Shown: positions 40,077-61,774 of the stretch, piece by piece | Layout: every line of letters begins with the position of its first letter | Numbering within the stretch: position 1 is the stretch's first letter | NCBI GenBank assembly: GCA_032768795.1 | Contig: CP136490.1 | Span: forward strand, 5,022,001-5,086,000 | Length of the DNA: 64,000 bases | Direction: 5' to 3' | DNA from: Tremella fuciformis | Taxonomy: Eukaryota; Basidiomycota; Tremellomycetes; Tremellales; Tremellaceae | Notes under the pieces: generated by a model | What the model was told of the DNA's origin: nothing | Database searches by the model: none | The model's input: the letters and a program-made list of their open reading frames with translations, nothing else | Program-made: the position numbers and the translations under genes

Positions 40077-40334
40077 CTATTTCGTCGACTTGGCGGTCGG
40101 CGGCGATGCGCCACCGGACTTGGTGGCCACTTCAAAGCAGTCTTGCAAGATCTCCTCGACCTGCTTAGTCGATTCGATGTCAGCTCATGTCGGCGCATGT
40201 TCCAGTACTCCATGCCCATCCCATTCCTCCTTCAGATTTCTATCTTCTTCGTCGGTGTGGGTGACCACGAAAGGCTTCGCGGAAGACTTCAGATCCTCGA
40301 GCCTGCTTTTCGCCTCGTTTAAAGTGGCGGTCCC
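40077..40334 (-). pseudogene. 3' part of host gene split by element A
   Basis: This is the 3' half of a gene that element A interrupts; the 5' half is at 61775-62025. Reading on the minus strand, the 5' half ends with an incomplete codon at the target duplication GTCCC, and the 3' half continues in the same frame with ATLNEAKSRLEDLKSSAKPF. A 48-nt intron (40208-40161) and a last exon ending at 40077 follow. Without the insertion the gene would encode 151 residues. The part here is charged and helical. I do not recognise the family. Confidence 0.75.
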
Positions 40335-40532
40335 TGTCGGGATCGGTGAACGCGAGTTGGTATGTGAGTGACTGCCTTGCTGGTCGACTGATATGCCAGG
40401 ATGAGTTACCAGGTGACAGATGAATAATACATTCTTCGAAGAAGGTATCCTCTCCTTCTCAGTCTGTATATGTAGAGTTCTCACGGGTAGTCGGCTACTA
40501 CGGACATGTCCGTGATGACGTATTCCATTACA
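40335..40532 (-). repeat. 3' LTR of element A (198 bp)
   Basis: Starts TGTCGGGATC on the plus strand and ends CATTACA, so the ends are TG...CA. Matches the copy at 61577-61774 base for base as far as I can check by eye. The flanking GTCCC is the target duplication. Confidence 0.95.
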
Positions 40533-40751
40533 GTCGCCTCCTCCTTTGTCCTCGGGCGTCGCGACCGAGCCTAGCGACGGGCGTCTCCTTGACGACGGTC
40601 GTGAGGGTGTCGACATGAGAACTGCAGAGTAGGGCGTGCAGTGACGGGCGCGGTAATATATGAACCAGCCAGGTTGGGCGCCCGTTCTTCGTCCATCTCT
40701 CTTCTTTCTTGAATCCTCGAGCGACACCCCAACTTGCCAAGTACGTTAACG

Positions 40752-41679
40752 ATGCCTGCTCGTATCTACACCGCCGCAGACGTGTCTGTATCCCCTCCTG
40801 CCTCGTACGCCATCGTCGATGCCAACGACGATTCGACTACATACCGCATAGGCAACGGTAGAACGTACCGAGCGCGACATGTCGGCTTTGACGGGACCCT
40901 CACTCAGGCCAAGCATCGAGCGGCGGTACGTGGCAGTTACTGAGCGGTATTCGCTGACTAGTAGGATCTCTCCAACCAGCTATCTTCGACCTTAGCGGCG
41001 ATGTCGGTTGATGAAGCTGGCCGGCACCGAGCTCATGTGATGCGCACCGCCGTGGCATTCATAGCAGCGTGGGATGGTCGGCTAAGGATCGTAAGGGCCG
41101 CCGACAGTGAGTCTATTCCGCGATTACACGGCTCATTACCAGAGTGTAATGCCTGCGAAAAGGCTGGCAAGCCTTGTGTCGTGGCCGCTATAGTACTCCA
41201 AGGAGGCGGGTCCCGCGCAGTTTCCTCGCAAGTACTGTTTTGTTCCTGCCAACTACGCTTACCTCAGCTGCGTGCGTTGTCACTCCCAGCATGGAGTTTC
41301 TTGCGACATCCAGCTCGGTCTTGCCCTAGGCAAACGTCCTCGGGGCACCGTTCGCGAAAGTGCCTGGCAGGAACTGGGCTCGACTCTGCAGGATCTACGG
41401 AGCGAGCTGTCGTCTACTGACCGCATGACCGCCCATGACAAGAAGAGATGGAAGGGGTACGTCGGGCGAGCCTTGTTTGTACGTTAGCATATTTGGTCAC
41501 TTACGGTTGCTAATTGGCAGATAGTCGACGGATTCCAGGTCAAGACGGAGCACAGGTCTCCCAAAAGGCCAGTTGACTATTCCAAGTATAGAGGCCGCGG
41601 CGGCTATGCACAGGAGTCGGACCCATCCGACGACGAGGCGACCGATCAGGAGGACGCCGAGGCCGATGACGATGCGTAG
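40752..41679 (+). CDS. Antisense accessory gene of element A: double Cys-cluster protein
   Basis: Four exons (40752-40925, 40965-41177, 41221-41478, 41521-41679) give 267 residues, all phase-0 junctions, introns of 39, 43 and 42 nt. The gene lies between the 3' LTR of element A (from 40532) and the end of its pol (41803), on the strand opposite to pol. Cys at about 119, 122 and 129 form CNACEKAGKPC, and a second group CVRCHSQHGVSC lies at 146-157; splicing brings the two together. The pattern CxxCxxxGxxC is shared with the antisense gene of element B. The N-terminal part reads like a small folded domain (YAIVDANDDSTTYRIGNGRTY); the C-terminus is acidic (SDDEATDQEDAEADDDA). A zinc-binding, possibly nucleic-acid-binding role is inferred only from the Cys pattern. 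Confidence 0.78.
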
Positions 41680-41802
41680 TAGGTGTTGTAGGTTGGCGCT
41701 TCCTTCCTCTTCCGGGGCGTGTTGTACATAATTATGCGTTCTCTTGCATGTAATGACCGTCGCGTAGTTGGAACAACGAGTGTAGGTTATTGACAGGTAC
41801 GC

Positions 41803-44777
41803 TCACGCGTACCTGTTAGGTACGAATCTCTTTCTCCTACTCTGGCTCTCCGAGTTTGAGTAGGCGTCGTACATGGTGGTGAAGGCAGGGTCGCTTTCCA
41901 CCTCTGCCGCTGGTTCCCATGTACTGTCACTGATAGGCCATCCTATCCACTTGATACGGTAGTGTTTGGAGGTAATCCCATGTTTGTCCTTGACCATTCG
42001 TTCGTCGAGGATCGCCTCGTAGGTATAACCGTTGTCATCTAACACTATGTCGCTGACGGGCGACTGCGTAGGTTGTGACTGGCTAGTACTTGTTTCCTCT
42101 GAGGCGTAGAAGGGCTTCAGGTATTCCACGTTGATCACGTCGTGGATCCTGTAGGACTCGGGGAGGTGCAGCTTGTATGCGTTGTCGTTGACCTTTGCTG
42201 CCACCTTGAATGGTCCTAACCACCGGTTATCTAGCTTGGCTGATGTCCTAGCTCCTTTGTAGTTTCGAGCAGAAAGTAAGACTAGGTCGCCCACTTTGAA
42301 TGTCTGTAACCGGCGTTTACGGTCGTATTGCTGTTTGTTCTGTGCCCGTGCGTGCTTGATCTGTTCTTGAAGGTACTTGAATCTTTCAAATATCCTGCGT
42401 GTATACGTCACCCCCTCCTCGCTTTCGTGCGAGGAACTTCCCAATGGGTCTGTCATATTCTGCCTAGGGGTGTAGCCGTACCAAGCATCGTAGGGGGTCA
42501 TTCTGGTGGTTCCGTGCACCGTGGTGTTGTATACGAATTCCGCTGTAGGAAGCAGCACGGACCAGTCGTCCTGTTCGTAGTTGGCATATACGCGTAGGTA
42601 CTGGCCCAGCCACTTGTTGACTATTTCGGTTTGCCCATCCGTTTGTGGGTGGTACGCGGTAGAGAACTTGAGGTCACAGCCAAGCTTACTGGTGACTGTG
42701 CGCCAGAAAGCTGACACGTACTGTGCTCCTCTGTCCGAGATGATACGGTCTGGTAACCCCGTTCTTGGGTAGACTTTCGTAAGAAACGCCTCCGCCAGGG
42801 TAGGGGCGTCGAGCTTGTCGATAGGTATAAAGATCGCCGCCTTCGTTAGCTGGTCTACCCAGACGCTGATGTTGGTATAGCCCTTGGAGTCCGGTAATTT
42901 GGTGATGTAGTCGGTAGATACAGTTGACCAGGGTCGCTCTGCCACGGGTATGTCTAGCAGTAATCCTGGTTGTAGTTGGTTGGTATGTTTGGTCTTTTGG
43001 CACGTTTCGCAATGCTTTACCCATGTTTTGACGTCTCGTCGCATCCTTGGCCACCAGAATCTTGCAAGTAGCCTGGATGTGGTCTTAGCCACCCCCGGGT
43101 GGCCAGCCGTCGGTAGGTTATGAGCCCATATGAGGACCGTGGTTCGTTGCTTCTCGGGCACGATAGGTAGGTCGTGGTAGTAGAAGAGGCCGTCCTTGTG
43201 TTTGTATTCTTCGGGATGGCTCTTCGTAAGAGCCACGTATTTTTGTTGTTCGTGCACATCCATGGCGCCTTTAAAGTCTTCTTGAGCCATAGGGTCCTTG
43301 TATTCGACCCTAGTTGCCAGGTACTGTGCTGAAGAAAGCAACGCCTTGAAGTTGTGCGCGTTGAGTTCTGGTGACAAGGTGGTTGCTTTGGTGTCCGTAG
43401 GTCGATAGTCTGGTCGTCTGGACAGGGCATCTGGCTTGGTAGCTTGTTTGCCTGGCCTATATTGGATGACAAAGTCGAAATCGGCCATGTACTCGCTCCA
43501 TCTAGCTTGCCTCCTTGTCAATTGCTTGGTGGTTAAGAAGTACTCTAGACTTCTGTGATCGGATAGTACGACCACTCGTACTCGGGTACCTTCGAGGTAA
43601 TGTCGCCAACTCTTGAATGCGTACACGATGGCTAGGAACTCCTTGTCGTGAACTGGATAGTTGAGTTCTGCCGGATCCATCTTCCGAGAAGCATATGCGA
43701 TGGGTCTGGTCGTACCATCTGGGTAGGTGTGTGACAGGATCGCACCCAGAGCGTAGTCCGACGCGTCCGTTTCTAGTAATAGGGGAAGATTTGGGTCGTA
43801 GTGGCTGAGTACGGGAGCCGTAGTCATCGCTCGCTTGAGAGAATCGAAAGCGTCCTGCTGTTTGGGTCCCCATTGGAAGGGCGTTCCCTTCTTGGTTAAG
43901 TCGTGTAAGGATTTGGCTATTACCGAAAAGTTCCTGATGAATCTGCGGTAGAAGTTGGCGAACCCTACAAACGACTGTGTCTCCTTCAAGTTCGTAGGCG
44001 TGGGCCAGTCCTGTACCGCCTCCACCTTCTTTGGGTCCATCTTGATGCCGTTTTTGTTAAGAACGAAACCCAGGAACTCCACCTCGTTGCTGTGGAATTG
44101 GCATTTCGAGAGTTTGGCGAATAGCTTATACTCTCGTAGTCGTCGCAGGACTTCCTGTACGTGGCGGGTATGGTGTTCCAGATCCTTGGAGTACACCAAT
44201 ATATCGTCGAGGTATACAGCCACGTACTTGTCGAGTAGGTCGTGGAAGACGTGGTTGATAAATAGCTGGAACGAGCCTGGTGCATTGCAGAGCCCGAAGG
44301 GCATGACCAGGTACTCGTATTGTCCGAAGGGTGTGCGGAAGGCTGTCTTCCACTCATCCCCCTCCGCTATGCGGACGAGGTTGTATGCACCCCGTAGGTC
44401 TAACTTGGTAAACACGGTCGATCCACGTATCTGGTCGATTACGTCGCCTATCAGGGGCAAAGGGTATTTGTTCTTGATCGTCATGGCGTTGAGCTTGCGG
44501 TAATCGACGCATAACCGCAGACTTCCGTCCTTCTTTTTGACGAATAGGACTGGTGCTCCTGCGGGGGATCGTGACTCTCTGATGAAGCCTTTATCCAGGT
44601 TTTCTCGCAGGTACGCCATTAGTTCTTCCCTTTCTCGTGGGCTAAGTGCGTAGATAGGCCCAGCTGGTGGTACCTTGTCCGAGCTCAGTTGGATGGCGTG
44701 GTCGAATTGCCGATGTTCTGGTAGCTTATCGGCCTGTCCTTTATCGAATACGTCTTTGTAGTGTGCATATTCGGCAG
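41803..44777 (-). CDS. Element A gag-pol, 3' segment: RT, RNase H, integrase, chromodomain
   Basis: This segment continues the frame of 53427-53764 once element B is ignored. It contains the reverse transcriptase (KKKDGSLRLCVDYRKLN, then the YLDD active site near 44205), RNase H (ETDASDYALGAIL), the integrase zinc part (HPGVAKT with CETCQKTK), the DDE core (STDYITKLPD, ISDRGAQY, and the Glu of GQTEIVNKW) and a C-terminal chromodomain (YRIKWIGWPISDSTWEP). The stop is at 41803. The first 91 codons of the open frame that runs into the LTR of element B are not part of it. Chromodomain elements of this kind are known to favour silent chromatin. Confidence 0.92.
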
Positions 44778-45290
44778 TGTCACGACGGACGTAGGGAGAG
44801 CACATGGAAGCCACGTGGGGAGACGGAGCTCGGACTCGTTGATTCAACGCATCACTCGCCGAGCTCACCGAGGGACGACGGATACTTAGGAAGACTGGGC
44901 GCGCGATACGTTCCGTAGTCTTCTCCCAATTGTTGTTCTCTGCAGACACGTAGACTGCCTGCTCCGTCCCGTCGCTTGGCTTGCCAGTGACACCGAGTCC
45001 CCCGCCGAGTTCCCCGTCTACCTCCCTCAACTCGCTCGCGCTCGTCGAGTTCACCTTCCCGCTCGCCGAGTTCAGCGAGTCCCTCGCCGCACCCCTCGCT
45101 CAACCCGTTCACCTCCTTGAGCTCAGCGAGTCCCTCGCCGAGCCCCTCGCTCACCTCCCCGAGCTCAGCGAGTCCCTCGCCGAGCTCCTCGCCCAACTCG
45201 CTCATACCTATCGACGTCAACGACCCCCACGCCGACCGTTCGGAGTACGTGCCCGCCGGGCCCTGGACAGAGAAGGCGGTCGTCGTGACA
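44778..45290 (+). repeat. 5' LTR of element B (513 bp)
   Basis: Ends are TGTCACGACG and CGTCGTGACA, a perfect 10-bp inverted repeat with TG...CA. The inner part repeats a short unit like GAGTCCCTCGCCGAGC three times. Preceded by the target duplication GGCAG. Confidence 0.95.
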
Positions 45291-45399
45291 GTATTGGGAG
45301 AAGACTACTACCGTCGGACACGTACCCAGACCGCTGAGTCCTGTTTCTCCTCGTTCATCTCGTCGAGGCCTCTCTCTCCCTCTCTGAGCCCTCCTCATC

Positions 45400-46665
45400 A
45401 TGTTTCCTTCCGCACCTGAATCCTCTCGTCTACCCAGGAGATCCCCCAGGCTCAATGAGCCCGAGGAGGAGCCTCCTGCACCACCCATTCCCCCTGCCGT
45501 GACCGTGACTAGGGAGGAAGAAGGCGGGGCTACCCCGCCTGACACTCCCAGGGCGTCAGAGTCTCGGCGAGCTCGCCGAGGCTTGGGCCCAATGCCTACA
45601 CCTCCCGCCGACATCAGTGATGCGGCGAGCATGGCGCTCTTCTTGAAAGAGCTCGAGCGGTGGAATATCCGCCGCGAAGCCTTTGAGGAAGCCCGCCTCG
45701 AGCTTCAGGAGGAAGAAGAGTTCCTCCGCCCAAGAGGGCGAGCTCCCTCGTTCAGCCCGGCGAGTTCAGCGAGCGGCGCGCCGAAGGAGCCGAAGGTCAA
45801 GGAGCCTGACACCTTCTCTGGGGAGAATCCCGCCAAGCTGAAAGGGTTCCTGTTGCAGTGCGAGCTGATGTTCAGTTTGCATGGGGGCAGGTACCAGTCG
45901 GAGGAGATCATGGTTTCGTTCATGATCTCGTACCTGCGGGGACCGGCTCTTCAGTCTGTCGAGCCGATGGTAGGTATGCGGCCGCGACCCGCCGAGCTCG
46001 CAACGGTGGACGCGTTCAAAAGGTACCTCAAGTCCGCCTTCGGCGACCCGGACGAACGGGGTACGGCAAAGCGACAACTTCGAGCGCTGCGGCAGACCAA
46101 GTCAGCTGCCGAGCACTTCGCTAAGGTCAGGGAGCTTGTTGCGGTGGCTGGTTTCACTGATCAGGTCGCGATTGTGGACTGGGCCATCCATGGGCTCAAG
46201 TCTCATCTTAAGGACGAGATCGCTAAGCGCGGCGAGTTCTACTCGCTGACCGAGCTCGTCGAGTTTATTGTGCCTCTAGACAATCGCCTCCGTCATCGCG
46301 AGGAGGAGAGGAAGCTGGAGGAGGCTGCTGCGGCGAAGGCTGAAAAGCACAAGCCGGAGTATGCCAAGGCTGAAGCGCCAGCGCGGCGCCCATGGGCTGA
46401 GCGCTTGGGCGCGTCGCTCCCGCCGGCTCGCCTCAGCGAGCAGCGCGGCGAGTCCTCGGCGAGTTCGGGCCCTTCTGGGTCAGACTTGCTGAAGTCAACG
46501 CGCAACCCCGATGGGTCTCTGACGGAGGCCGAGAGGGAGCGCCGTTTGCACAGCGGGCTCTGCTTGCGGTGCGGGCAGGGCGGCCACCAGCTGGCTAACT
46601 GCCCCACCGCTAAGCCGAGGCCGCTGCCCCCGATTCCCGCCCAGGGACAGGCCCCAAAAGCCTGA
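45400..46665 (+). CDS. Element B Gag
   Basis: A 421-residue frame from ATG 45400. The middle has the Ty3-type capsid pattern (KEPDTFSGENPAKLKGFLLQ, SYLRGPALQSV, LRALRQTKSAAEHF, DWAIHGLKSHLKDEI). A CCHC zinc knuckle CLRCGQGGHQLANC lies near the C-terminus. It ends with the slippery stretch CCCAAAA and a TGA seven bases later. It forms the virus-like particle core and packages element RNA. Confidence 0.93.
   Translation: MFPSAPESSRLPRRSPRLNEPEEEPPAPPIPPAVTVTREEEGGATPPDTPRASESRRARRGLGPMPTPPADISDAASMALFLKELERWNIRREAFEEARLELQEEEEFLRPRGRAPSFSPASSASGAPKEPKVKEPDTFSGENPAKLKGFLLQCELMFSLHGGRYQSEEIMVSFMISYLRGPALQSVEPMVGMRPRPAELATVDAFKRYLKSAFGDPDERGTAKRQLRALRQTKSAAEHFAKVRELVAVAGFTDQVAIVDWAIHGLKSHLKDEIAKRGEFYSLTELVEFIVPLDNRLRHREEERKLEEAAAAKAEKHKPEYAKAEAPARRPWAERLGASLPPARLSEQRGESSASSGPSGSDLLKSTRNPDGSLTEAERERRLHSGLCLRCGQGGHQLANCPTAKPRPLPPIPAQGQAPKA
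46653..46659 (+). promoter_or_regulatory. probable -1 ribosomal frameshift site CCCAAAA
   Basis: In the Gag frame the bases read C CCA AAA, an X XXY YYZ heptamer, followed by GCC TGA. The pol frame is exactly -1 to gag and stays open through the gag stop from before this point. An inverted repeat CGGCGAG (46685-46691) and CTCGCCG (46713-46719) could form a hairpin downstream, though 25 bases is longer than usual. Pol has no ATG of its own near its start. Confidence 0.72.
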
Positions 46666-49600
46666 GGGATGGTGGACAACAGCTCGGCGAGCATCATCCC
46701 TTTCCGCATCGACTCGCCGCGACCGTAATCTTTGACTGTTCCCGTTCTCCTTCATCCCAGACCGATGATACCCGTATACCCGTGACTCACACTGATTCCC
46801 CACAAGGTTGGGCAGCCTCTGAGAGGCTCCTAGACAACCCCACGCACGCTGTTGTCGCAGGTCGCATCAGCGGGCATCCCGCGAAGATCCTCCTGGATTC
46901 AGGAGCCTCCGCTAACTTCCTCGCCAAGTCGTTCGCCGAGCGACACCGCATTGCCCTCAATGCGTACGACAAGCCCGTCGGACTCACCTTGTTCGACGGA
47001 GTAGAGTCGTCTGATGGCCCGCTGACTCACTTCTCTCGCGAGCGAGTCGAGGTGGGCCAGTATGCTGGCACAGCAAGGTTCGAGCTCACGCGCTTGAATG
47101 GAGCTGATGCAGTGTTGGGCTACCCGTGGCTGCGAACTCGCCGAGTTGTAATCGACTTCGGCGAAGGAACTGTCACGGGAGCACCCTCGCAAGGTTGGGC
47201 AGAGCCCGTTCCCACTTCCAATGTCGCCGAGTCATCCCCTTCATCTCTCTCCCTCTCGCCGCCGCCGAGCTCCACCGTGTCCCCTGAATCCACCGAGTCC
47301 ACCGTGTCCCCTGAAGTCGCCGAGTCTATCGAGTTCCCTACATCCGCTGTGTCCGCCGAGTCCCCTGTGTCCGCTGTTCCCCGCTCTCACCCCTGCCCCG
47401 CTGTCCCTACCGAGTCCGCTGATCCCGAGCTGCCTCCAACCTTGCCTTCCCCCTGCTTGTCGACCAAGGATGATCGAGCAGGACAGTCGCCGAGCGCTGA
47501 GCCCTCGCTGAGGAAGCAGCAGCCGGGGAGGAAGCGAGTCAGGAAGAGGCGGATGGGAACAAAGAAACGCGCCTTCTCCCGCTCCAACTCTATTCCCGTG
47601 ACCCACCCATGCCGCTGGCCATTCGTCGCGGTTGCTGAGGAGCTGAAACTATGCGCGGTCAGCACAGACTCGCCGAGCTCGCTGAGGTTCGACCAGTTGG
47701 ACGAGCTCAGCTCATGGCCCTCTTTCGAGCCGCCCGCCGAACTCTCTGAGGCTGAGATTCAGCTGATTGCCGCCAGCGTTCCTGACCAGTACCTGGAGTT
47801 TCTCGACGTCTTCCACCCCAGGAAAGGCGTCGAGACCCTCGCGCCACACCGAGCATATGACATGAAGATCGAGCTGAAGGCGGGCAGCTCGCTCAAGCTT
47901 GCCCCGCTCTACGAGGTCGCCCAAGATCAGAAGGAAGCCATGAGGCAAATCCTCGAGCGAGAAGAAGCCGCAGGCCGCATCCGGCCTAGCAACTCGCCGT
48001 ACGGCTCGCCGACCTTCTGCGTGCGTAAGACTGATGGTGTGAACTGGCGAATGGTGGTGGACTACCGCCATTTGAACAGTGCCACCGTTCCTGATGCTTA
48101 CCCTGTCCCGCTGATCTCTCAAGTCATCTCTGATCTCGGCGGCTCTGAGTGGTTTTCCTGCTTTGACCTAGTCTCGGCGTATCAATTGCTAAGGCTCGCC
48201 GAGGGGTTTGAGAGCCTCACCGCTTTCCGCACGCCGTTCGGCATGTACGAGTCGCTAGTCGTGCGCGATGGGCTGCGGAACGCGCCAGCCGTCTTTCAGC
48301 ACTTCCTGAATGAGCTTTTCAGTGATCTCAGGCAGTGGGTCACGGTATACATCGACGACATCATCGTCCACGCCAAGACGCTCGAAGAGCTTCGCCGAGT
48401 CACTCGGCTAGTTCTGGAGCGGGTGCGAGGAACCTCCCTGTTCTTGAAGGCGAGTAAGTGTCGGTTTGAGCAGAGATCCGTCAAGTTTCTTGGCTTCATG
48501 ATCTCCAAGGACGGCGTGGCGGCTGATCCGGGCTACGTCCAAGGGGTCCAAGAGGCTTCGAGGCCCAAGGATCTCCATGAGGTGCGACGCTTTCTGGGAA
48601 TGGCGAGCTACTATCGGCGGTTCGTTCCTCACTTCGCTAAGGTCGCCGGGCCGCTACACCATCTGACGAAAGCGTCGGTTGGTTTCCATTGGGGTGAGGA
48701 GCAGGAACAGGCGTTCCAGGCGTTGAAGGAGAAACTGAGCCAGGCTCCGGTGCTCGCCTTCTTCAACCCGGAGTTGCCGACGATTGTGCAGACTGACGCA
48801 TCGGCCTATGGCTGGGGCTTCGTCATCTCGCAAGTCAACTCGGCGAATGAGGAGCACCCCGTGGCCATCGAGTCGGGCTCGTTCAAAGGCGCCGAGTTGA
48901 ACTACACGGTGACTGAGAAGGAGTTCCTGGCTATCGTTCACGCCTTCCGGCGCAAGCGGCATCTGTTGTCTCAGGTTCATTCCACGGTCATCACTGACCA
49001 CTTGAATCTTACTTACTGGATGGAGCCGCGGCAGCTGAACCCTCGCCAGGCTAGATGGGTTGAGATCTTAGCCGGGTTCGATTACAAAATCGTGTATCGC
49101 CCTGGTAAGGAGGGCGAGCTTCCCGATGCGCTCTCCCGTGACTCGGCATATCTCCCAGGGCCATTGATGCAGCAGCCGCAGAACTTCATCCAGGCACTCC
49201 CCACCGCCGACTCTTCCTCCACGGTCTCGTCCTCCCTCGGCCATCTCCTCCGTGCAGCAACACTCGGCGAGATCGGTGTCGAGGAGGAGGAGGAGGAAGA
49301 GGTCGGCGAGGAACGCGTTGAGGTCGCCGAGTTGTCCCCGGTCCTGGCTGAGTTAACCTCTGACGCGCCTACTCTCGCCTCGACCCACCCTGTCCTGTTG
49401 GGATTTTGCCGAAGGCTCGGCTTCTCTGGGGAAGCGCTCTTGCAGCGTGACCCCGAGGGAAGGCTGCGAGTCGACGGACGACTGTACGTGGAACCGGGGC
49501 CAGAACGGGTGCAGATCCTGAAGGGACGGCACGAAGCTATCCTCGCAGGGCACCCGGGCGTTGCGAAGACTCTCGAGTTGGTGAAGCGCGACTACGCGTG

Positions 49601-50864
49601 GCTTGGCCTTCGGCGCGACGTGGAGGCCTTCGTCCGCGCATGCGCAGTATGTCAGCGGACCAAGACCGACCGACACCGGGCTCACGGCTTCCTCCAGCCA
49701 CTGGAGATAGCTGAGAGGCCCTGGGCATCCATCTCCATGGACTTTATCGAGCCCCTGCCGGTCTCTAACGGTTTTGACTCGATTCTGGTGGTTGTTGACA
49801 GACTAACGAAGTGGGCGATTTTCATCCCGACGACCACTCGGCTCAACTCGGCGGGACTCGCCGAGTTGATCATTGATCACGTGGTCTGTCAACACGGGCT
49901 CCCGCAATCCATCGTCTCTGATCGAGGTTCGAAGTTCACCAGTAAGCTGTGGGCCAACCTGTGCAAGGCCTTGGGTATTAAGCTGTCCTTGTCCACGGCT
50001 TTCCATCCGCAGACTGATGGGCAAACTGAGCGGGTAAATCAAGTTCTCGAGCAGTACCTTCGGGTCTTCTCGACCTATCAGCAAGACAACTGGGCTAAGC
50101 TTTTGCCGTGCGCATCGTTCTCGTACAACAACTGGAAGCACTCGGCCATCGAGATGTCACCGTTTGTAGCAAACTTTGGGTACTCGCCGAGGTGGACGGA
50201 GGACTTGGTGAACTCGGAGAACTCGGAGAGGGAGGGTGCGGATGCCGGTGAACGACTGGGACTGCGGAAGGCGACGGAGCTGAGTGATCTGCATGAGCTC
50301 TGCCGGGCTAACATTGAGGCGGCGAACCGCGATTATGCGAGGCACTACAATGCTAAGCACTCGTCGCCGCCCAGCTTCAAGATCGGTGACTCGGTGCTCC
50401 TCTCGCTGAAGAACATCGAGACTCGGCGACCGATGAAGAAGCTGGACCTCAAGTTCGGTGGACCGTTCGAGATCATCGAGCAGGTCAACCCGGTAACGTA
50501 TCGCCTCGCTCTCCCTCCCTCCATGAAGTGCCACGACGTCTTCCACGTCAACCTCCTGAAACCCTTCCAACAGCCTACCTTGCCCGGCCAGTCGTACGAG
50601 CCTCCCGACCCGGTGGAAGTGGACAGCGAGCTGGGAGAGAGCTGGGAGGTCGCGGCGATCCTGGATTCTCGAATACGCCGTGGACGCCTTGAGTACCTCG
50701 TTGAGTGGTTGGGCTTTGAGCTCACGGATGAGCACGCGACTTGGGAGCCGTTAGCTCATGTGAGCGAGTCGGCCGCCGAGCTCGTCGCGGACTTCCACGC
50801 CGCTCACCCAGAGAAGCCATCAAGTGCGCCGAGGCCTCGGCGAGGCGCTCGCCGAGCCGTATGA
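46657..50864 (+). CDS. Element B Pol: protease, RT, RNase H, integrase, chromodomain
   Basis: Open in the -1 frame to gag, so made as a Gag-Pol fusion. Order of domains: protease (KILLDSGASANFL), a Ser/Pro-rich linker, RT (RKTDGVNWRMVVDYRHLN, YIDD at 48348-48359), RNase H (QTDASAYGWGFVIS), integrase zinc part (HPGVAKT with CAVCQRTK), DDE core (SMDFIEPLP, VSDRGSKF and the Glu of GQTERVNQV) and a chromodomain (LEYLVEWLGFELTDEHATWEP). All catalytic residues I checked are present. The frame ends at 50864, 108 bases before the end of the antisense gene. Confidence 0.93.
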
Positions 50865-50972
50865 ATACTGCGTATTCCTGCCTGAATGATGCGTTCACGA
50901 AGATGATGCACAGAACACTCTATAATCAACGACTATGAACACCTCTTCCCCTCTTTCCCCCCCCCTCCTCTC

Positions 50973-52647
50973 CTATCGTCCTCCCGACCCACCGGGGGCC
51001 GGTCCCTCGTTGAGGTCCTCAAGACCCCACTCGCTCAGATCCTCCCCAAGCATGCGCCGCAGCTCATTGACGGCGTACTGACGCAGTCGGGGGTTGTCCG
51101 GGCTGCGCGCGAGCGCCGCGAGGCCCTGGGCGGCTGCAAAGTCGCCTGGACCGATGTGGCGTTCCGCAGACCGCTGAGGTGTCGCGGGCGCGTCGCGCCG
51201 AGGTGTCGCCGGGGGGTCGCCGCGCAGTGGCGTCCGCTCGGCGGTCGGCGAGCTGGACGGCGCCTCCCCATCCTTCAGAGTACAGCGGCCGGTTGTGCAG
51301 GTGTAGCACTTTCGGCCTATTGTGCCCGGCGGGACGAGGCAGCGGCGTCCCTCTCGTCTACACCGACGACACGGCCGCTCGGCGTCTACCGCGTCCTTGT
51401 GGTGGTCCTGCTGATAAGTATCTACCGCTGGTTGTAACGGGTACTGACGAGGATCTTCGCTGGCGTCCGATTCTCGTGCCGCCCGGCTCGTCGCGGGGTC
51501 GCTGGAGGCGCTGCCGGTCTCCGGGAAGGTGTCGCGGCCGCCGCAGGCGTCCGCGGCGCCGCTCGCGGTGTCGGTCTCCGCGCCCCCTCCCCCTCCCCCC
51601 TCCTCTCCCCCTCCTCCCTCCCCTTGCCCTTCCAGCCCATCGCCGCCTGCAGTGCCTCCATGGAGGCCTCCATCCTCTTGGCCGCCGCCTGCAGCGCGGC
51701 CTCAGCCGCCTCCTCCGCCTCCATGTCGACGTCGTCGGCCCCGCTGACCTCCCTGACCTCGCTCACTTCGCCGCGCGAGCCGCTTGCCTCTCCTTGCGGT
51801 CGGCGACTAGGTCGTGTGCGCGGCGGCGTGGGTAGGCGCTCGCCCAAGGGTAAGTCATGCACGACGGAGTAAACTACGTCGCACATTGGGGCCTCCGAGT
51901 CGGGTCGGTCGAAGGGGTTGAGGTAGGCGGTGGCTCCAGCCCGCCAGCTTGCCTCGGCGTCGAACACGCTATCGGTCCGTTCGATTCCTGCCCGTCAGTC
52001 TCATCTCTTCTTGATAGTGCCGCTGTGGCTTACGCGGGCGCCGCCCCATCCGCTCGCCCTCTCTTTCGTCCACCGGCAGAGCAGGCTCGAGCTCGAGCCT
52101 CTCCGCGCCGCCCTCGTCCACCTCCATCTCCTCGTCCTCCTGCTCGAGCTGCGTCAGCGGCGAGCTGCCGCCATCGCCCTCCTCCTCCTCCTCCTCCCCC
52201 TCCCCCTCCTCCGCCCCCTCCTCCTCCTCCTCCTCCCCGTCCACCACTCCCCTCATCACCTCCCCGGCAACCTCCCCCTCGCCGAGCTCTTCGATCTCGA
52301 GCTCGTCGCTTGCCGAGCGCTCTCGACGAGTGCCGCGCCCGCGACCGAAAGTCCGCTGGGTGCCGTCGAATCCTTCCCGTCAGCTCTGCATCTCCCTCTT
52401 CTCGGCCACTCACGTCGCGCCGGCTGCTCCTCTCGCCCCTCTTCCCCCCCTCGCTCCGCCCCCTGGCCCTGCACAACCAGGGCTACCCTCGACGGCACGA
52501 CGAACCGCCCGCCCCACCCTTCGCGTCAGCCACCAGTTCGCTCGCTCGGCGCGCTGCGCGCGCCGACTCACTGGTCTGCCCCTCCGCCTGGGCTCGTCGT
52601 CTCGCCGCGCTCGCCTTGCGCGTTGCCGCTGGTGTTGTTGGGGCCAT
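50973..52647 (-). CDS. Antisense accessory gene of element B: double Cys-cluster protein
   Basis: On the strand opposite to pol, between pol and the 3' LTR. The last three junctions are well supported by phase: acidic exon 52372-52034 (enters and leaves in phase 1), then 51987-51449, then 51410-50973 with introns 51988-52033 and 51411-51448. They give an acidic run of Glu, a segment VFDAEASWRAGATAYLNPF, a helix of Ala/Glu and then PCRRCRREGRRC and CYTCTTGRC, followed by a C-terminal helix LRQYAVNELRRMLGEDLSE. The CxxCxxxGxxC module is the same as in the gene of element A. The N-terminal exons up to ATG 52647 are uncertain. Zinc binding is inferred. Confidence 0.7.
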
Positions 52648-52908: not shown

Positions 52909-53421
52909 TGTCACGACGGACGTAGGGAGAGCACATGGAAGCCACGTGGGGAGACGGAGCTCGGACTCGTTGATTCAACGCATCACTCGCCGAGCTCACC
53001 GAGGGACGACGGATACTTAGGAAGACTGGGCGCGCGATACGTTCCGTAGTCTTCTCCCAATTGTTGTTCTCTGCAGACACGTAGACTGCCTGCTCCGTCC
53101 CGTCGCTTGGCTTGCCAGTGACACCGAGTCCCCCGCCGAGTTCCCCGTCTACCTCCCTCAACTCGCTCGCGCTCGTCGAGTTCACCTTCCCGCTCGCCGA
53201 GTTCAGCGAGTCCCTCGCCGCACCCCTCGCTCAACCCGTTCACCTCCTTGAGCTCAGCGAGTCCCTCGCCGAGCCCCTCGCTCACCTCCCCGAGCTCAGC
53301 GAGTCCCTCGCCGAGCTCCTCGCCCAACTCGCTCATACCTATCGACGTCAACGACCCCCACGCCGACCGTTCGGAGTACGTGCCCGCCGGGCCCTGGACA
53401 GAGAAGGCGGTCGTCGTGACA
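52909..53421 (+). repeat. 3' LTR of element B (513 bp)
   Basis: Same length and, by eye, same sequence as 44778-45290. Followed by the second copy of GGCAG. A purine-rich stretch (GGTTGGGCAGAG) lies directly before it and may be the second-strand primer. Confidence 0.95.
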
Positions 53422-53426
53422 GGCAG

Positions 53427-53764
53427 GTAGCTCTGTCTCAGTAGGCGGTTCTGCCGTCGTGATGGCGGTGTAGAGCCACGCAGTGGCCTGGTCTGACGTC
53501 TTGTCTGTTGTGTCCCGTGGTGCTAGAGTTCTCGCGCTCCAGTCTACCACAGGCTGCACTTTGTCCAGAAAGGGCATGCCTAAGATCAAGTGTGCTATGC
53601 GTATCGGGGAGACTATGAAGTCGGCGTGATAAGGTTCGAACCCCCTTCCCAGTAGGACCGTAAGCTGTACTCGGTGGGTTAAGAGTCCGTACTCGGATAC
53701 CCTGCCATCCGCCATTACCAATGGCGTTGGTCGTTTGAGTTTTGTCATGGGGAGGTGATGTCGA
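53427..53764 (-). CDS. Element A gag-pol, protease segment between two insertions
   Basis: This short piece joins the gag/protease part (from 58819) to the RT part (to 44777). It carries the end of the aspartic protease with the typical ILGMPFLDKVQPVVDW flap region. Both borders are target duplications: GTCGA of element C on the right and GGCAG of element B on the left. Ignoring both insertions, the three segments total 4776 bases from the ATG at 60286, a whole number of codons. Confidence 0.85.
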
Positions 53765-54082
53765 CGACGGAATCTTAGCTCTGAGGCAATGGGATTCCGG
53801 TCACCTGTTGCCCGCTCAGCACTTGCTATGAGTGATGCATTCGGACTTACCTGTTGCCCGCTCAGCACTTGCTATGAGTGATGAGGAGGGCAACAGGCGG
53901 CGGCATTCTACAAGGTCGTCGAGGGTGTCGGCGTTATAAGCGGAGTTATCGTTGGTGGCAGCTTCTCTGCCTCGTCGAGGGTGAACCTCGTCGAGGCACA
54001 ACCTCGTCGAGGATCGAGTAGCCTCGACGAGGTTACTCGAAGATGAGTCAAGCTCATGTGAGCGTGCCACCTATTTCCGTCG
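53765..54082 (-). repeat. 3' LTR of element C (318 bp)
   Basis: Contains two 35-bp direct repeats (53803-53837 and 53849-53883) and several CCTCGTCGAGG or CCTCGACGAGG palindromes around 53965-54030. Same sequence as 58501-58818 by eye. Confidence 0.94.
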
Positions 54083-54101: not shown

Positions 54102-57100
54102 CTATTGACTCATCTGCCCTCCTTCTCCTTGTCTTTCCAATCCCAGTAACTGCCGGAGCTGTCTTGTCTTCTCGGCCGAAAGGGTCTTGGTCAGGATGTC
54201 GGCTCGATTGCTGTCCGTTGGTGTGTATTTGAGCTCAAGCAGACCACCAGCTTGATGCTCTCGTATCCACTGGGCTCGCATGTCGAATGCTTTGTTCAAC
54301 TTGAACCCGTGTTGATGTTTGGCCAGTTGAATGGCCCCATTGTTGTCGTTGTAGATGGGCACTGCTCCATCTATGCCTAGGTCGAGGTCGTTCAATAGTT
54401 GCCTGAGCCATATTGCCTCTTTGCCCGCTTCTGTCGATGCAAGGAGCTCTGCCTGTGTCGTCGACAGTGCGACTGTCGGTTGTCGCCTGCTTTTCCATGA
54501 TACGATGCCTCCGTAGGTGTTGAAGATATAGCCAGTTGTTGATCGGCGTGTATCGAGACATCCACCCCAGTCTGCGTCCGCCCATCCTAACAGTGCTCGT
54601 CTCCCTCCATGAGCATCGAAGGTGAGAGCAAGATCCGAGGTTCCTCGAAGATACCTCAGTAGGTGCTTTGCGGCCCTCCAATGCGCGAGGGACCATTTGC
54701 TTATGAAGCGACACAGCAGTGAGGCTGCGTAGGCGATGTCGGGTCGGGTGATAGTGGCGATATAGAGGATTGACCCGGCGAGTGCAGGAAACGGTTTGTC
54801 TCGAGCCTCCTCGACCTCCTTTGGCGTAGCCTCGACGAGCTTTGCGTCTGGCAAGATTGTCTTGCAGGCTTTCCCGGTTTCACCGAAGCGTTGAAGAACT
54901 GCCTCGATGTAGTGCTCTTGTGATAGGTACATCTTCTTGTTTGGCCTGTCTCGGTAGATGTTGATACCGAGGAAGTATGAGACCGGTCCTTGATCCTTGC
55001 ACTCAAGTTCCTTGTCGATCCTCCGCTTGATCTCGTCGATTGTTGATCGATCGTTGCCGGCTATGAGCATGTCGTCAACATGGACTGAGATCATGCACCG
55101 CTTGTGTCCTTGTTGCAGCGAGTAGATGCATGGGTCCGCTAGGGTCGGTTTGAAGCCTAGCTCCCGTAGGAACTCGTCGAGGCGCTTGTTGAACAAGTGC
55201 GGTGATTGTCGGAGACCGTATAATGACTTCCGGAGGTGCAGGACGTGATCGGCAGCGATGTCGCTACCTTCTGGTGGCTCGATGAAGATGTCCTTGTCGA
55301 TATTGGCCTTGAGGAATGCGCCGATGATGTCGATTTGGTCGCATTCCCAGTCGAGGTAGTTAACGATGGTGAGGAATAGGCGGAATGAAGACTTGTGGGT
55401 GACCGATGCAAAGAGTTCGTCGAAATCCCGTCCTGAGACTTGTTGGAACCCTCTCACGACGAATCTAGCCTTGTATTGGCTTGCTTTGCCCGTGTCCCCG
55501 TCGATTTTGCGGGTGAAGACCCATTTGCCTGTAAGGGTGCGGTGGTTCTCTCTGGGGACTTTCTCCCACACTCCGTATTTCTCCATCTTTGTCATCTCCT
55601 CGTCCATGGCCCTGTTCCACTCCTCCCAGTCTGCAGCTCGACGAGCTTCGGTGTATGACTGAGGGTTGGTGAGTGACTGGGCTGATAACGCGTGCTCGAT
55701 GGCTACTCGGTTATAGTCCATGTCGATGTCGTGCAGAGGGTGATGACTGGGCTCTTGACCTGCTAGTCTCCCGGACCGTCTTGGTTCATCTGCATCGGCC
55801 TCTATGGGCTGGTTTAGCCGACGATCTGGATCCTCTGGTCCGTCGTCGGGGTTCGGTTCTGGGCTCGGTGCATCCTCTCGAATGTATTCGTTGGCCCAGC
55901 CTCTCCCTTGCCTTGGCACGGCTTGGGGAGGTATGTCGTCCATCTCTTCCCTTTGTTCCTCTTCTTCTGGTGCCTCCCCTGCCTCGACTATCTCGTTCAG
56001 CTCGATTGATGTATCGTCATCCTCGTCGAGGCTCGTCGATGCTTGTCGAGGTTCAGGTTGAGGCGGCTCCAGAATCCGTCGCGGTTCATCTGAACGTGGC
56101 GTTGTCTTCTTGCCCGTGATGAATGTAACGTCTCGACTTGCGATGACCCTGTTGGTTTGGGTCAACACCTTGTAGCCCCAGCTCCCTTCTGTGTATCCCA
56201 GCAGTCGACCGCATTGACCCCGCTCGTCGAGCTTTGATGCGGGGCTCACAACTCGATAGATGCAGTGTTGGCCAAATGGCTGCATTCCTTCATATCGTAT
56301 GTCAATGTCGTGATGTGGTCGAAAGAGAGCGACAGGGATTTTTCCTTGGGAGTCTGGTAGCCTGTTTCTGGTGAAGACTACATATCGTAATGCGTCGACC
56401 CAGAATTGACTTGACAGGTTCGAGTCCGCGAGACATGTGCGGATGTCATTGAGGATGGTGAGATGGACGCGCTCGACTCGACTGTTTTGATTGTGTGCGT
56501 CGGTCGGCGTGAGGGTATGCTCAATTCCCTTGCTTTTACACCAGTGGCTGAATTCCTTGCTCGTGAACTCGCCTCCTTGGTCTGAGCGGATGGTCTTGAC
56601 CGTTCGATCAAGCTGATTCTCTGCCAACTTGATGTAGTCTTGTAGTGCTTCGGCTGCATCCGACTTCTTCTTGATTGGTATAGCTTGCACAAATTTGCTA
56701 TGGTCGTCGTAGCAGGTGAGGAAGTATTGGAAGCCTTCTCTCGACTGGACGGTCGCTGGTCCCCATAGATCGACTGATACCTCGACGAGGGGTTTGCCGG
56801 CTCGACGCGGGTTAGGTAGAGATGCCGAGCGCGTTGCCTTTCCTTTCAGGCAATCCATGCATTCGACTCTCCGAAACAATCCCGTCCACTTTGCGCCTAG
56901 CTTCCCCTCTTCCCCAAGCTCCCAGACCTTCCTCATGTTCGAGTGACCTAGGCGCTTGTGCCAGGTGAGGAGGCGGTTGTCTTCGGCTTCAGTGTTTTCT
57001 CTTGCCTGAAGTGCTCGGTGAATGCGCGAGGTGGTGCGTACCGGTGTGTCGTCTACAACCCATAGGTTGCCGAGCTTCTTGCCCCGGAGGATGACCTTTC

Positions 57101-58403
57101 CTTTCTCGACCAATGTAGCCGAGTCACTCGAGAAGCGCCAATGGGTCCCTGTGTATGGACCGAGGCGCTGTGTGGAGAGGAGGTTGTGCGTGAATGAGGG
57201 GACATAGAGGGCGTTCTTGTACCATACGTTCTCGAATGTCAGGCGGCCGGAGTGTGTAGCCTCGACAATTGACCCATCTCCGATCTGGATTTTGATGGGC
57301 TTGTCGAGCTTGGTGAGGTGGGAGAGGAGGTGTTTGTCCTTGATAAACGGACTTGTAGCACCGCTGTCGATGATGATGGAAGTGGAGGGAAGGTTATCGT
57401 GGGCGTGCAGTGCGATCTCTGTCGCATAATAGCCTTCCTCCTTTATCTCCCTCGACGAGCCTCTCTTGGCCTCACTTGATGAGTCGTCTCCTGACTCGCT
57501 CTGCTCCCTCGCCTTCATTCCCTTCCCCGCTTGTCCTCCTTGCTTCTTCCTCCTGTCTGCTTCCTTTGCCGACCTCTGCTCCTGGATGTGCTTCGGCACT
57601 CCAATCACTTTCCAGCACTCATCTGTGGAGTGCCTCCCCTGATCCGGATGGTGGATGCATCTCTTGCCTGCCGGTTTTGGTAGAGATTTGCTGAGCATCC
57701 CCATCTCGTTTACGCTCTCGCCCTTTTGTTGACGTCGGCGGTGTTCATCGGCAACCCTATCGATAACCTCGTCGAGATGGATCTTGTTCGACGAGGTCCC
57801 TGAGTAGAAGGTCGATGCGAGGAGGCCGTATGAGGACGGTAGGCGACGGATGGCGGCGTATGCGCCGATCTGGTTGGCGAATTGCTCAAGGGTGAGCTTG
57901 GAAGTGATGGCGGAGGAGGTGATTTCGGCCAACTGTGACCGGATAGCAGTGAGATGAGGTTCGGGGTCCTCATTCTCTGGGATGGTCTCGCCAAATATCG
58001 ATGACCATAATTCGGCTAGGCGAGATCCGTTATCGGCCCCATATGTGGTGACCAGGTGATCGTAAAGCCCCTTCGGTTGAGGATTCTCGAAGTCGATCAG
58101 GCTCGAGGGAAGCTTATTTTGGACAGTCTCTGTCAGACTGCCGTAGAGAGTGGAGAGGGCGGTGGACTGCTCCTTCTCATGCTCGTATAGAGCAACTGCT
58201 CTCTTTGATGTCTCGGCTGCTGTGGCCGGACTTGACACTGGATATCGAGCCTCGACGAGTGCTCGGATCGCTGACGCGTCTTTGGTGATGTGGGGGACAA
58301 GGCCGGCGGATCCGAGGACGACTCGAATCTCGCGCACCCACTGGGCGTAGTTGTCGCGCCCATTGAGCTTGCGCTCTTCTTTCACCGTCTGCACAGATGG
58401 CAT
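54102..58403 (-). CDS. Element C polyprotein: gag, protease, integrase, RT, RNase H
   Basis: A single frame of 1433 residues from ATG 58403. The order protease-integrase-RT is that of Ty1/copia. Seen motifs: protease IIDSGATSPFI; integrase HKRLGHSN with CMDCLKGK, core VSVDLWGP, SDQGGEFTS and the Glu in NSRVERVH; RT with LYGLRQSPHLFNKRLD and the active site HVDDMLIAG near 55070; RNase H with WADADWGGC and LSTTQAELLA. The gag part has a short CxxH...C segment (CIHHPDQGRHSTDEC) in place of a standard knuckle. No stop or frameshift is seen, so it looks functional. Confidence 0.93.
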   Translation of the reverse strand: MPSVQTVKEERKLNGRDNYAQWVREIRVVLGSAGLVPHITKDASAIRALVEARYPVSSPATAAETSKRAVALYEHEKEQSTALSTLYGSLTETVQNKLPSSLIDFENPQPKGLYDHLVTTYGADNGSRLAELWSSIFGETIPENEDPEPHLTAIRSQLAEITSSAITSKLTLEQFANQIGAYAAIRRLPSSYGLLASTFYSGTSSNKIHLDEVIDRVADEHRRRQQKGESVNEMGMLSKSLPKPAGKRCIHHPDQGRHSTDECWKVIGVPKHIQEQRSAKEADRRKKQGGQAGKGMKAREQSESGDDSSSEAKRGSSREIKEEGYYATEIALHAHDNLPSTSIIIDSGATSPFIKDKHLLSHLTKLDKPIKIQIGDGSIVEATHSGRLTFENVWYKNALYVPSFTHNLLSTQRLGPYTGTHWRFSSDSATLVEKGKVILRGKKLGNLWVVDDTPVRTTSRIHRALQARENTEAEDNRLLTWHKRLGHSNMRKVWELGEEGKLGAKWTGLFRRVECMDCLKGKATRSASLPNPRRAGKPLVEVSVDLWGPATVQSREGFQYFLTCYDDHSKFVQAIPIKKKSDAAEALQDYIKLAENQLDRTVKTIRSDQGGEFTSKEFSHWCKSKGIEHTLTPTDAHNQNSRVERVHLTILNDIRTCLADSNLSSQFWVDALRYVVFTRNRLPDSQGKIPVALFRPHHDIDIRYEGMQPFGQHCIYRVVSPASKLDERGQCGRLLGYTEGSWGYKVLTQTNRVIASRDVTFITGKKTTPRSDEPRRILEPPQPEPRQASTSLDEDDDTSIELNEIVEAGEAPEEEEQREEMDDIPPQAVPRQGRGWANEYIREDAPSPEPNPDDGPEDPDRRLNQPIEADADEPRRSGRLAGQEPSHHPLHDIDMDYNRVAIEHALSAQSLTNPQSYTEARRAADWEEWNRAMDEEMTKMEKYGVWEKVPRENHRTLTGKWVFTRKIDGDTGKASQYKARFVVRGFQQVSGRDFDELFASVTHKSSFRLFLTIVNYLDWECDQIDIIGAFLKANIDKDIFIEPPEGSDIAADHVLHLRKSLYGLRQSPHLFNKRLDEFLRELGFKPTLADPCIYSLQQGHKRCMISVHVDDMLIAGNDRSTIDEIKRRIDKELECKDQGPVSYFLGINIYRDRPNKKMYLSQEHYIEAVLQRFGETGKACKTILPDAKLVEATPKEVEEARDKPFPALAGSILYIATITRPDIAYAASLLCRFISKWSLAHWRAAKHLLRYLRGTSDLALTFDAHGGRRALLGWADADWGGCLDTRRSTTGYIFNTYGGIVSWKSRRQPTVALSTTQAELLASTEAGKEAIWLRQLLNDLDLGIDGAVPIYNDNNGAIQLAKHQHGFKLNKAFDMRAQWIREHQAGGLLELKYTPTDSNRADILTKTLSAEKTRQLRQLLGLERQGEGGQMSQ

Positions 58404-58500
58404 GTCGGAGGACCACTTCGAGGCTGGCGGTGCGTAGGCAGGGTCGACGAGTTTGTTGACGCGTTCTATCTACCGCGACTTGTCGAAGGAGACGTTACCA

Positions 58501-58818
58501 CGACGGAATCTTAGCTCTGAGGCAATGGGATTCCGGTCACCTGTTGCCCGCTCAGCACTTGCTATGAGTGATGCATTCGGACTTACCTGTTGCCCGCTCA
58601 GCACTTGCTATGAGTGATGAGGAGGGCAACAGGCGGCGGCATTCTACAAGGTCGTCGAGGGTGTCGGCGTTATAAGCGGAGTTATCGTTGGTGGCAGCTT
58701 CTCTGCCTCGTCGAGGGTGAACCTCGTCGAGGCACAACCTCGTCGAGGATCGAGTAGCCTCGACGAGGTTACTCGAAGATGAGTCAAGCTCATGTGAGCG
58801 TGCCACCTATTTCCGTCG
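58501..58818 (-). repeat. 5' LTR of element C (318 bp)
   Basis: Partner of 53765-54082, with the same two 35-bp internal repeats (58539-58573 and 58585-58619). It lies upstream of the polyprotein start and should carry the promoter. Confidence 0.94.
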
Positions 58819-61576: not shown

Positions 61577-61774
61577 TGTCGGGATCGGTGAACGCGAGTT
61601 GGTATGTGAGTGACTGCCTTGCTGGTCGACTGATATGCCAGGATGAGTTACCAGGTGACAGATGAATAATACATTCTTCGAAGAAGGTATCCTCTCCTTC
61701 TCAGTCTGTATATGTAGAGTTCTCACGGGTAGTCGGCTACTACGGACATGTCCGTGATGACGTATTCCATTACA
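61577..61774 (-). repeat. 5' LTR of element A (198 bp)
   Basis: The partner of 40335-40532. It lies upstream of the gag part of the minus-strand element, so it is the promoter-bearing copy. It is followed on the plus strand by the target duplication GTCCC and the 5' fragment of the host gene. Confidence 0.95.

Follow-up and report, generated by a model that had tools for sequence, protein, structure and literature searches.

Antisense six-cysteine genes between pol and the 3′ LTR of Ty3/gypsy retrotransposons in Tremella fuciformis, and their sense counterparts in two Ty1/copia-type frames

Introduction

A close described system is brtn, an antisense gene of Boty-like gypsy elements in Botrytis and Sclerotinia (Zhao et al. 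2011, as given in excerpts of PMC7264820, PMC8365987 and PMC4227169). In plants, antisense open reading frames (aORFs) are described for Retand (TRP28), Grande (gene23) and RIRE2 in excerpts of PMC11963269 and PMC7264820; the former puts the share of Retand clusters with antisense TRP28 ORFs at 97% and proposes that these act in regulation. PMC11963269 also names antisense genes of HTLV-type retroviruses; PMC5987419, PMC2864245 and PMC12810828 were consulted as well.

Here we analysed a window of 64,000 nucleotides from the basidiomycete Tremella fuciformis (assembly GCA_032768795.1, contig CP136490.1, positions 5,022,001 to 5,086,000, forward strand) and searched the genome it comes from (one genome, 28.1 Mb in 11 contigs). 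A first-pass annotation of this window had described two gypsy elements, each with an antisense gene between the end of pol and the 3′ LTR; both genes were recovered exactly, at 40752–41679 on the plus strand (gene A) and at 50973–52647 on the minus strand (gene B). Positions without a contig name refer to the window, and loci elsewhere carry L numbers or contig positions.

Results

Two nested gypsy elements

Element A spans 40335–61774 in minus orientation and carries a TSD of GTCCC. Element B, on the plus strand and with a TSD of GGCAG, sits inside the pol of element A, whose own sequence within the listed pol ORF stops at 44777, where B inserted. The annotated LTR lengths of 198 and 513 bp proved right, with both members of each pair identical and a TSD present. 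The features, taken from listed ORFs, Pfam matches and repeat comparison, are as follows.

40335–40532, minus strand: 3′ LTR of element A, 198 bp, identical to 61577–61774, with TG...CA ends; TSD GTCCC at 40330–40334
41803–45054, minus strand: 3′ part of element A pol (RT, RNase H, integrase, chromodomain); listed ORF, Pfam
61577–61774, minus strand: 5′ LTR of element A; TSD GTCCC just beyond
44778–45290, plus strand: 5′ LTR of element B, 513 bp; TSD GGCAG
45400–46665, plus strand: gag of element B (PF03732); listed ORF, Pfam
46782–50864, plus strand: pol of element B (protease, RT, RNase H, integrase, chromodomain); listed ORF, Pfam
52909–53421, plus strand: 3′ LTR of element B, identical to the 5′ LTR

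Both elements have the characters of Ty3/gypsy chromoviruses, namely TG..CA LTR ends, a 5-bp TSD and, by Pfam, the order RT, RNase H and integrase followed by a chromodomain in pol. The annotated difference between a continuous gag-pol frame in A and a frame change in B also held, since an open frame of 1832–1886 aa, long enough for a fused gag-pol, was found around 12 of the 18 element A rows, while gag and pol of element B occupy different frames.

A Ty1/copia element is nested in element A as well; its two repeats (53764–54063 and 58500–58799) match exactly over 300 bp or more, its frame lies at 54102–58403, and Pfam detected RVT_2. A tRNA-Val gene (anticodon tac) was predicted at 148–230 using a bacterial setting.

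Antisense gene A

Gene A was modelled with five exons encoding 256 aa, in agreement with the several introns annotated before, and its parts, obtained from the gene model and the comparison of copies, are listed below.

40752–40925, plus strand: exon 1, frame kept in 19/19 copies
40965–41106, plus strand: exon 2
41143–41227, plus strand: exon 3, first cysteine triad from 41145
41228–41267, plus strand: predicted intron 3, GC-AG type (GCAAGT...CAG), with a donor that keeps both cysteine groups in one frame
41268–41478, plus strand: exon 4, second cysteine triad to 41304
41521–41679, plus strand: exon 5, acidic C-terminus, stop codon at 41677–41679

The four predicted introns measure 39, 36, 40 and 42 nt. 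The third was modelled as GC-AG because the neighbouring GT donor splits the cysteine groups between frames; a GT-AG model with this adjacent donor (GTACTG) was rejected, as it shifts the second group out of frame. Gene A and the pol of its element are convergent, with 123 bp between their stops. The encoded motif reads CX2CX6C-X17-CX2CX7C, in which the first half is the CxxCxxxGxxC noted earlier, followed by the second cysteine group as annotated.

The region 40533–41802 occurs 19 times in the genome with 96–100% identity, each time adjoining element A pol, and the copies fall into two subfamilies (7 and 12 copies). The gene A frame is open in all 19, and all four intron-end dinucleotide pairs are intact in 18 of them, the exception being L023, which has AC for GC. 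Between the subfamilies, represented by one copy each (L010 and L017), dN/dS was 0.052, with 18 synonymous changes over 191.5 sites and three non-synonymous changes over 576.5 sites; in the same pair, non-coding differences numbered 12 in 157 intron sites and 10 in 342 flanking sites. Across the 19 copies, variable exon sites numbered 9, 2 and 26 at the first, second and third codon positions, respectively. The frames shifted by +1 and +2 gave ratios of 6.3 and 6.9, and the three reverse frames gave 0.11, 0.77 and, in one case, no synonymous change. For the 3′ 1500 nt of element A pol in the same two subfamilies dN/dS was 0.109, against 0.052 for gene A. The protein database search with protein A returned a single match, an unspliced fragment on a 600-base contig that is almost identical in sequence.

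Antisense gene B

Gene B, antisense to element B, was modelled with four exons encoding 463 aa. Its parts, again from the gene model and the comparison of copies, are the following.

52572–52647, minus strand: exon 1
52034–52372, minus strand: exon 2, with the acidic stretch
51449–51987, minus strand: exon 3
50973–51410, minus strand: exon 4, with the six-cysteine module at 51282–51371 and predicted C-terminal helices

The predicted introns measure 199, 46 and 38 nt. The gene B stop is convergent with the pol stop of element B at a distance of 108 bp, so that both genes end about 110–125 bp from pol, as the annotation had put it. The cysteine motif is CX2CX6C-X10-CX2CX4C, the first half being again CxxCxxxGxxC.

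The copy analysis covered the eight full copies, with partial copies left out. The frame is open in all eight and differences in exon length are multiples of three; variable sites numbered 14, 31 and 59 at the three codon positions, respectively. In pairwise comparison, dN/dS was 0.30 for L035, the full copy that diverges most and is without the modelled acceptor AG of intron 3, whereas the close copies L032 and L033 gave 0.73 and 0.76 from 25 and 16 changes, respectively, ratios that speak little for selection there. Gene B contains GC-rich, low-complexity stretches. A protein database search with exon 4 found no homologue, and a single-sequence structure model of this exon reached a mean pLDDT of 60, weakest in the cysteine half, with values above 80 confined to the C-terminal helices.

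Taken with the copies, the two antisense frames behave as retrotransposon-owned protein-coding genes under purifying selection. The earlier view that the elements have kept an accessory gene is borne out by this selection and by the presence of gene A in all 19 copies. The transcripts would be spliced as modelled at the predicted introns.

Genes A and B compared

An acidic region had been annotated in both proteins and is indeed present in both, but its place differs, being C-terminal in protein A and near the N-terminus in protein B. BLASTP of protein A against protein B gave no alignment outside the cysteine module, and Pfam scans of the two proteins found no family above cut-off. A common origin of genes A and B, which are alike in the cysteine module alone, is plausible.

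The cysteine module

Thirteen modules from eleven groups were aligned and share six invariant cysteines in the pattern CX2CX6-9C-X8-22-CX2CX3-8C. All 13 have isoleucine, leucine or valine in one of the two positions that follow the third cysteine, and in 10 the last cysteine is followed by serine or threonine. The six cysteines would bind zinc.

Classical Zn2Cys6 proteins have the spacing CX2CX6C-X5-12-CX2CX6-8C. By this rule, the modules of the group F2 and of the two copia-type frames L060 and L074 have the spacing of this class (PF00172), whereas those of A, B and most other groups depart from it. Three of the 13 modules matched Zn_clus (PF00172) weakly (best E 0.012), as did two of 13 shuffled ones (best E 0.24), none above the Pfam cut-off. 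In a PDB profile search with the modules the best match was AlcR (E 0.028), and 9 of the 17 listed rows were entries that we take to be Zn2Cys6 factors. Membership of that class first seemed supported by these rows and was then dropped, as one control set with shuffled non-cysteine residues returned 10 such rows out of 12 (best Gal4, E 0.13). The likeness to Zn2Cys6 is one of cysteine spacing and no proof of membership. Weak likeness was also seen between 3 of 13 modules and DUF3716 (PF12511), a family of unassigned function (best E 0.009; shuffled controls 0 of 13), none of the matches reaching the curated cut-off. A genome search for DUF3716 pointed to two weak places, and no element was seen in the 1.2 kb inspected at one of them.

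Reach across other gypsy groups

The first-pass annotation had proposed that the gene was kept or acquired twice. That it is kept stands; "twice" proved too narrow. In this one genome, nine gypsy groups (A, B, C, F2 and five groups found by sampling) carry the six-cysteine module in the corresponding antisense position, and two Ty1/copia-type frames have it as well. The groups were defined by integrase score and frame length, not by a tree, and outside the window exons or frames were worked out rather than whole gene models.

Family C (L054–L059) was reached through relatives of gene B. In L054–L058 pol is convergent to the cysteine gene and 42–64% identical to element B pol, the longest matches having 60% (L056) and 59% (L058) identity; the stretch examined at L059 contained no pol. 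The cysteine exon of L054–L058 (L059 left out) gave dN/dS of 0.046–0.151 in 9 of 10 pairs, with dS of 0.47–0.74, and 0.35 in the tenth pair (L057 and L058, four changes). Because the module is shared together with pol (about 60% identity in the longest matches), B and C would most simply have received the two together by co-inheritance.

For the survey, 12 other gypsy groups were chosen by integrase match and blind to the cysteine gene, and each contributed a single 3′ stretch of 3.2 kb. The full module was antisense in five of the 12 stretches (L062, L063, L067, L068 and L071) and sense in none, against an antisense expectation of 0.013 in 12 stretches from dinucleotide shuffles. L061 had the first cysteine triad only, and no module was found in the sampled 3′ stretches of L065, L066, L069 and L070. 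Together with the misplaced stretch of L072, which covers the beginning of another element, this makes five of the 12 stretches without the gene, so the gene is probably dispensable for gypsy elements. No cysteine module was found in the 3′ stretch of L064 (C9:620800–624000), yet its antisense frames behind pol are 63–96% identical to those of L071 (C1:738500–741700); since the two differ in integrase score and resemble each other in the DNA behind pol, an exchange of 3′ modules between families is possible.

Two single stretches had further features. Two antisense six-cysteine modules, their first cysteines about 1.26 kb apart, were seen in L068 (C2:2159350–2162550), and L069 (C8:133100–136300) had several sense open frames behind pol.

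Homology led to the group F2 (L073), whose antisense frame consists of one exon and lies 59 bp away from the stop of pol; a protein database search with the F2 protein found no homologue. Across groups, the gap between pol stop and gene stop ranges from 25 to 258 bp, where for L067, L068 and L071 the longest frame already open as the stretch begins was followed to its first stop, which was used as the pol stop.

Genome-wide positions of the module

Measured against an integrase reference set of 150 listed matches of 207 candidates, 78 of 115 module matches were antisense and 1.2–2.4 kb downstream of a listed integrase, two were sense and 4.6–4.8 kb from one, and for 35 the 6 kb upstream contained no listed integrase. 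Six of these 35 belong to family C, five of which adjoin pol on direct inspection. The 115 matches comprise 19 (one per copy of element A), 18 of 65 rows (12 of B and six of C), 56 of 62 rows and 22 of 25 rows, the remaining three of the last set being family C again. Exon duplicates and fragments were left out, as were two B-like places that have the cysteine part (C10:13.3 kb and C10:271.7–272.3 kb), the Ty1/copia match and a weak match at C2:2733333; the two B-like, the Ty1/copia and the C2 places have no listed gypsy integrase within 6 kb upstream.

Sense modules in Ty1/copia-type frames

Two Ty1/copia-type frames, of 1763 aa in L060 (C1:2593196–2593693) and 2023 aa in L074 (C8:43169–43567), carry the module as well, here in sense. 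In both it follows a copia-type pol end in the same frame and is read straight through, with no break. The pol end of L060 and the copia element of the window, which is without a six-cysteine tail, share 38% identity across 271 residues, and the pol end of L074 is 53% identical to L060 in the 38 residues compared; Pfam found no family on the L060 pol end. The F2 antisense protein matched the tail of L060 with E 2e-5 (related C4 copy, 4e-4; tail of L074, 0.018), and these alignments, short and cysteine-rich as they are, point to a relationship of the gypsy and copia modules across superfamilies. In L074 the module is followed by an acidic, perhaps coiled-coil stretch.

Discussion

The antisense frame is a recurrent accessory gene of these elements, and we consider it probable that its spliced transcript would encode a trans-acting, zinc- and nucleic-acid-binding factor in the service of the element. 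On the wider reading our judgement is evenly balanced: one portable zinc-cluster gene family might have spread across the LTR retrotransposons of this lineage and crossed superfamilies, being antisense and mostly intron-bearing in gypsy chromoviruses and a sense, intronless Pol extension in Ty1/copia, and coding for a retroelement-owned nuclear factor. The antisense place would suit an intron-bearing gene: by the logic of retrotransposition, the genomic RNA is a product of the opposite strand, so that the introns of the antisense gene would survive copying.

As to what the protein does, our first choice, tentatively held, is that it would regulate LTR transcription or the RNA of its own element and would be expressed from a separate promoter, placed upstream of the gene on the side of the 3′ LTR. 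A regulator is favoured because the gene is separate and acidic stretches are present in A and B. The reading that comes next, rather unlikely in our judgement and partly overlapping with the broad statement above, is a cofactor of the particle or the pre-integration complex, which would move with cDNA and integrase and aid nuclear entry or target choice. It is favoured because of the copia fusion, in which the module, in frame behind Pol, would be synthesised and packaged along with it; such delivery would fit work in the particle or before integration better than an early transcription factor. The pol of both A and B also ends in a chromodomain, which is a targeting domain. However, a separate gene in its own orientation leaves the stoichiometry with Pol unset in gypsy, the copia module could equally be cleaved off, and acidic stretches suit a regulator equally.

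We regard it as improbable that the gene serves self-limitation, either through a trans-acting factor for copy-number control or through an antisense transcript that feeds RNA silencing. Such a transcript would be complementary to the genomic RNA, and Piwi-domain matches were found in the host (C1:6108748, C1:3861549–3862735 and C10:743182), so RNA silencing was retained as an option; self-restriction also has a precedent in yeast, in the p22 of Ty1 (excerpt of PMC4599808). However, an effect of the RNA alone would leave the amino acids unconserved, whereas gene A has a dN/dS of 0.052, and a function in silencing only is ruled out by the codon pattern. A self-limiting protein would furthermore be harder to maintain across so many groups. 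Chance open stretches or carried fragments of host genes, for which the low complexity of gene B and the want of a Pfam family above cut-off might speak, can be dismissed almost entirely in view of the exact spliced frame under selection, the expectation of 0.013 in 12 stretches and a position common to many groups.

To our knowledge, fungal LTR retrotransposons are usually described as gag-pol only. An accessory gene in many families, under selection as strong as that on pol, would imply that an accessory function similar to those of retroviruses is present in these elements. The locus also shows a route by which an intron-bearing gene can ride in a retrotransposon, and the genome offers a natural experiment, with the module as a separate antisense gene or as a Pol extension, and with families that have it and families that do not.

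Both the place, from pol to the 3′ LTR, and the antisense orientation are known already; searches of the open-licence PMC literature yielded no description of the six-cysteine gene in many gypsy groups of one fungal genome or of its copia counterpart, nor of any antisense six-cysteine gene in basidiomycete LTR elements. The Boty elements with brtn resemble A and B in being fungal gypsy elements with a chromodomain, as the excerpt of PMC4227169 has it, and in carrying an additional gene, likewise antisense, in the interval from pol to the 3′ LTR; they differ in their ascomycete hosts, while the present module occurs in nine groups of one genome, and brtn was compared by its description alone. 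The plant aORFs, as excerpted in PMC11963269 and PMC7264820, are likewise antisense between pol and the 3′ LTR and present in most copies, and their products are predicted to be DNA-binding (TRP28) or nuclear (gene23). They differ in their plant hosts and in that Retand belongs to a non-chromovirus lineage, whereas A and B are chromodomain gypsy elements; in these excerpts the six-cysteine module is not named for them, and the present module is found in Ty1/copia-type frames as well. In the terms used for the aORF-3R class, genes A and B are both antisense and placed between pol and the 3′ LTR, and gene A is conserved as a coding frame in 19 of 19 copies. The antisense genes of HTLV-type retroviruses, with HBZ as the antisense product of HTLV, are retroviral, unlike A and B, and might be compared with them in the way they work, as antisense-coded regulators.
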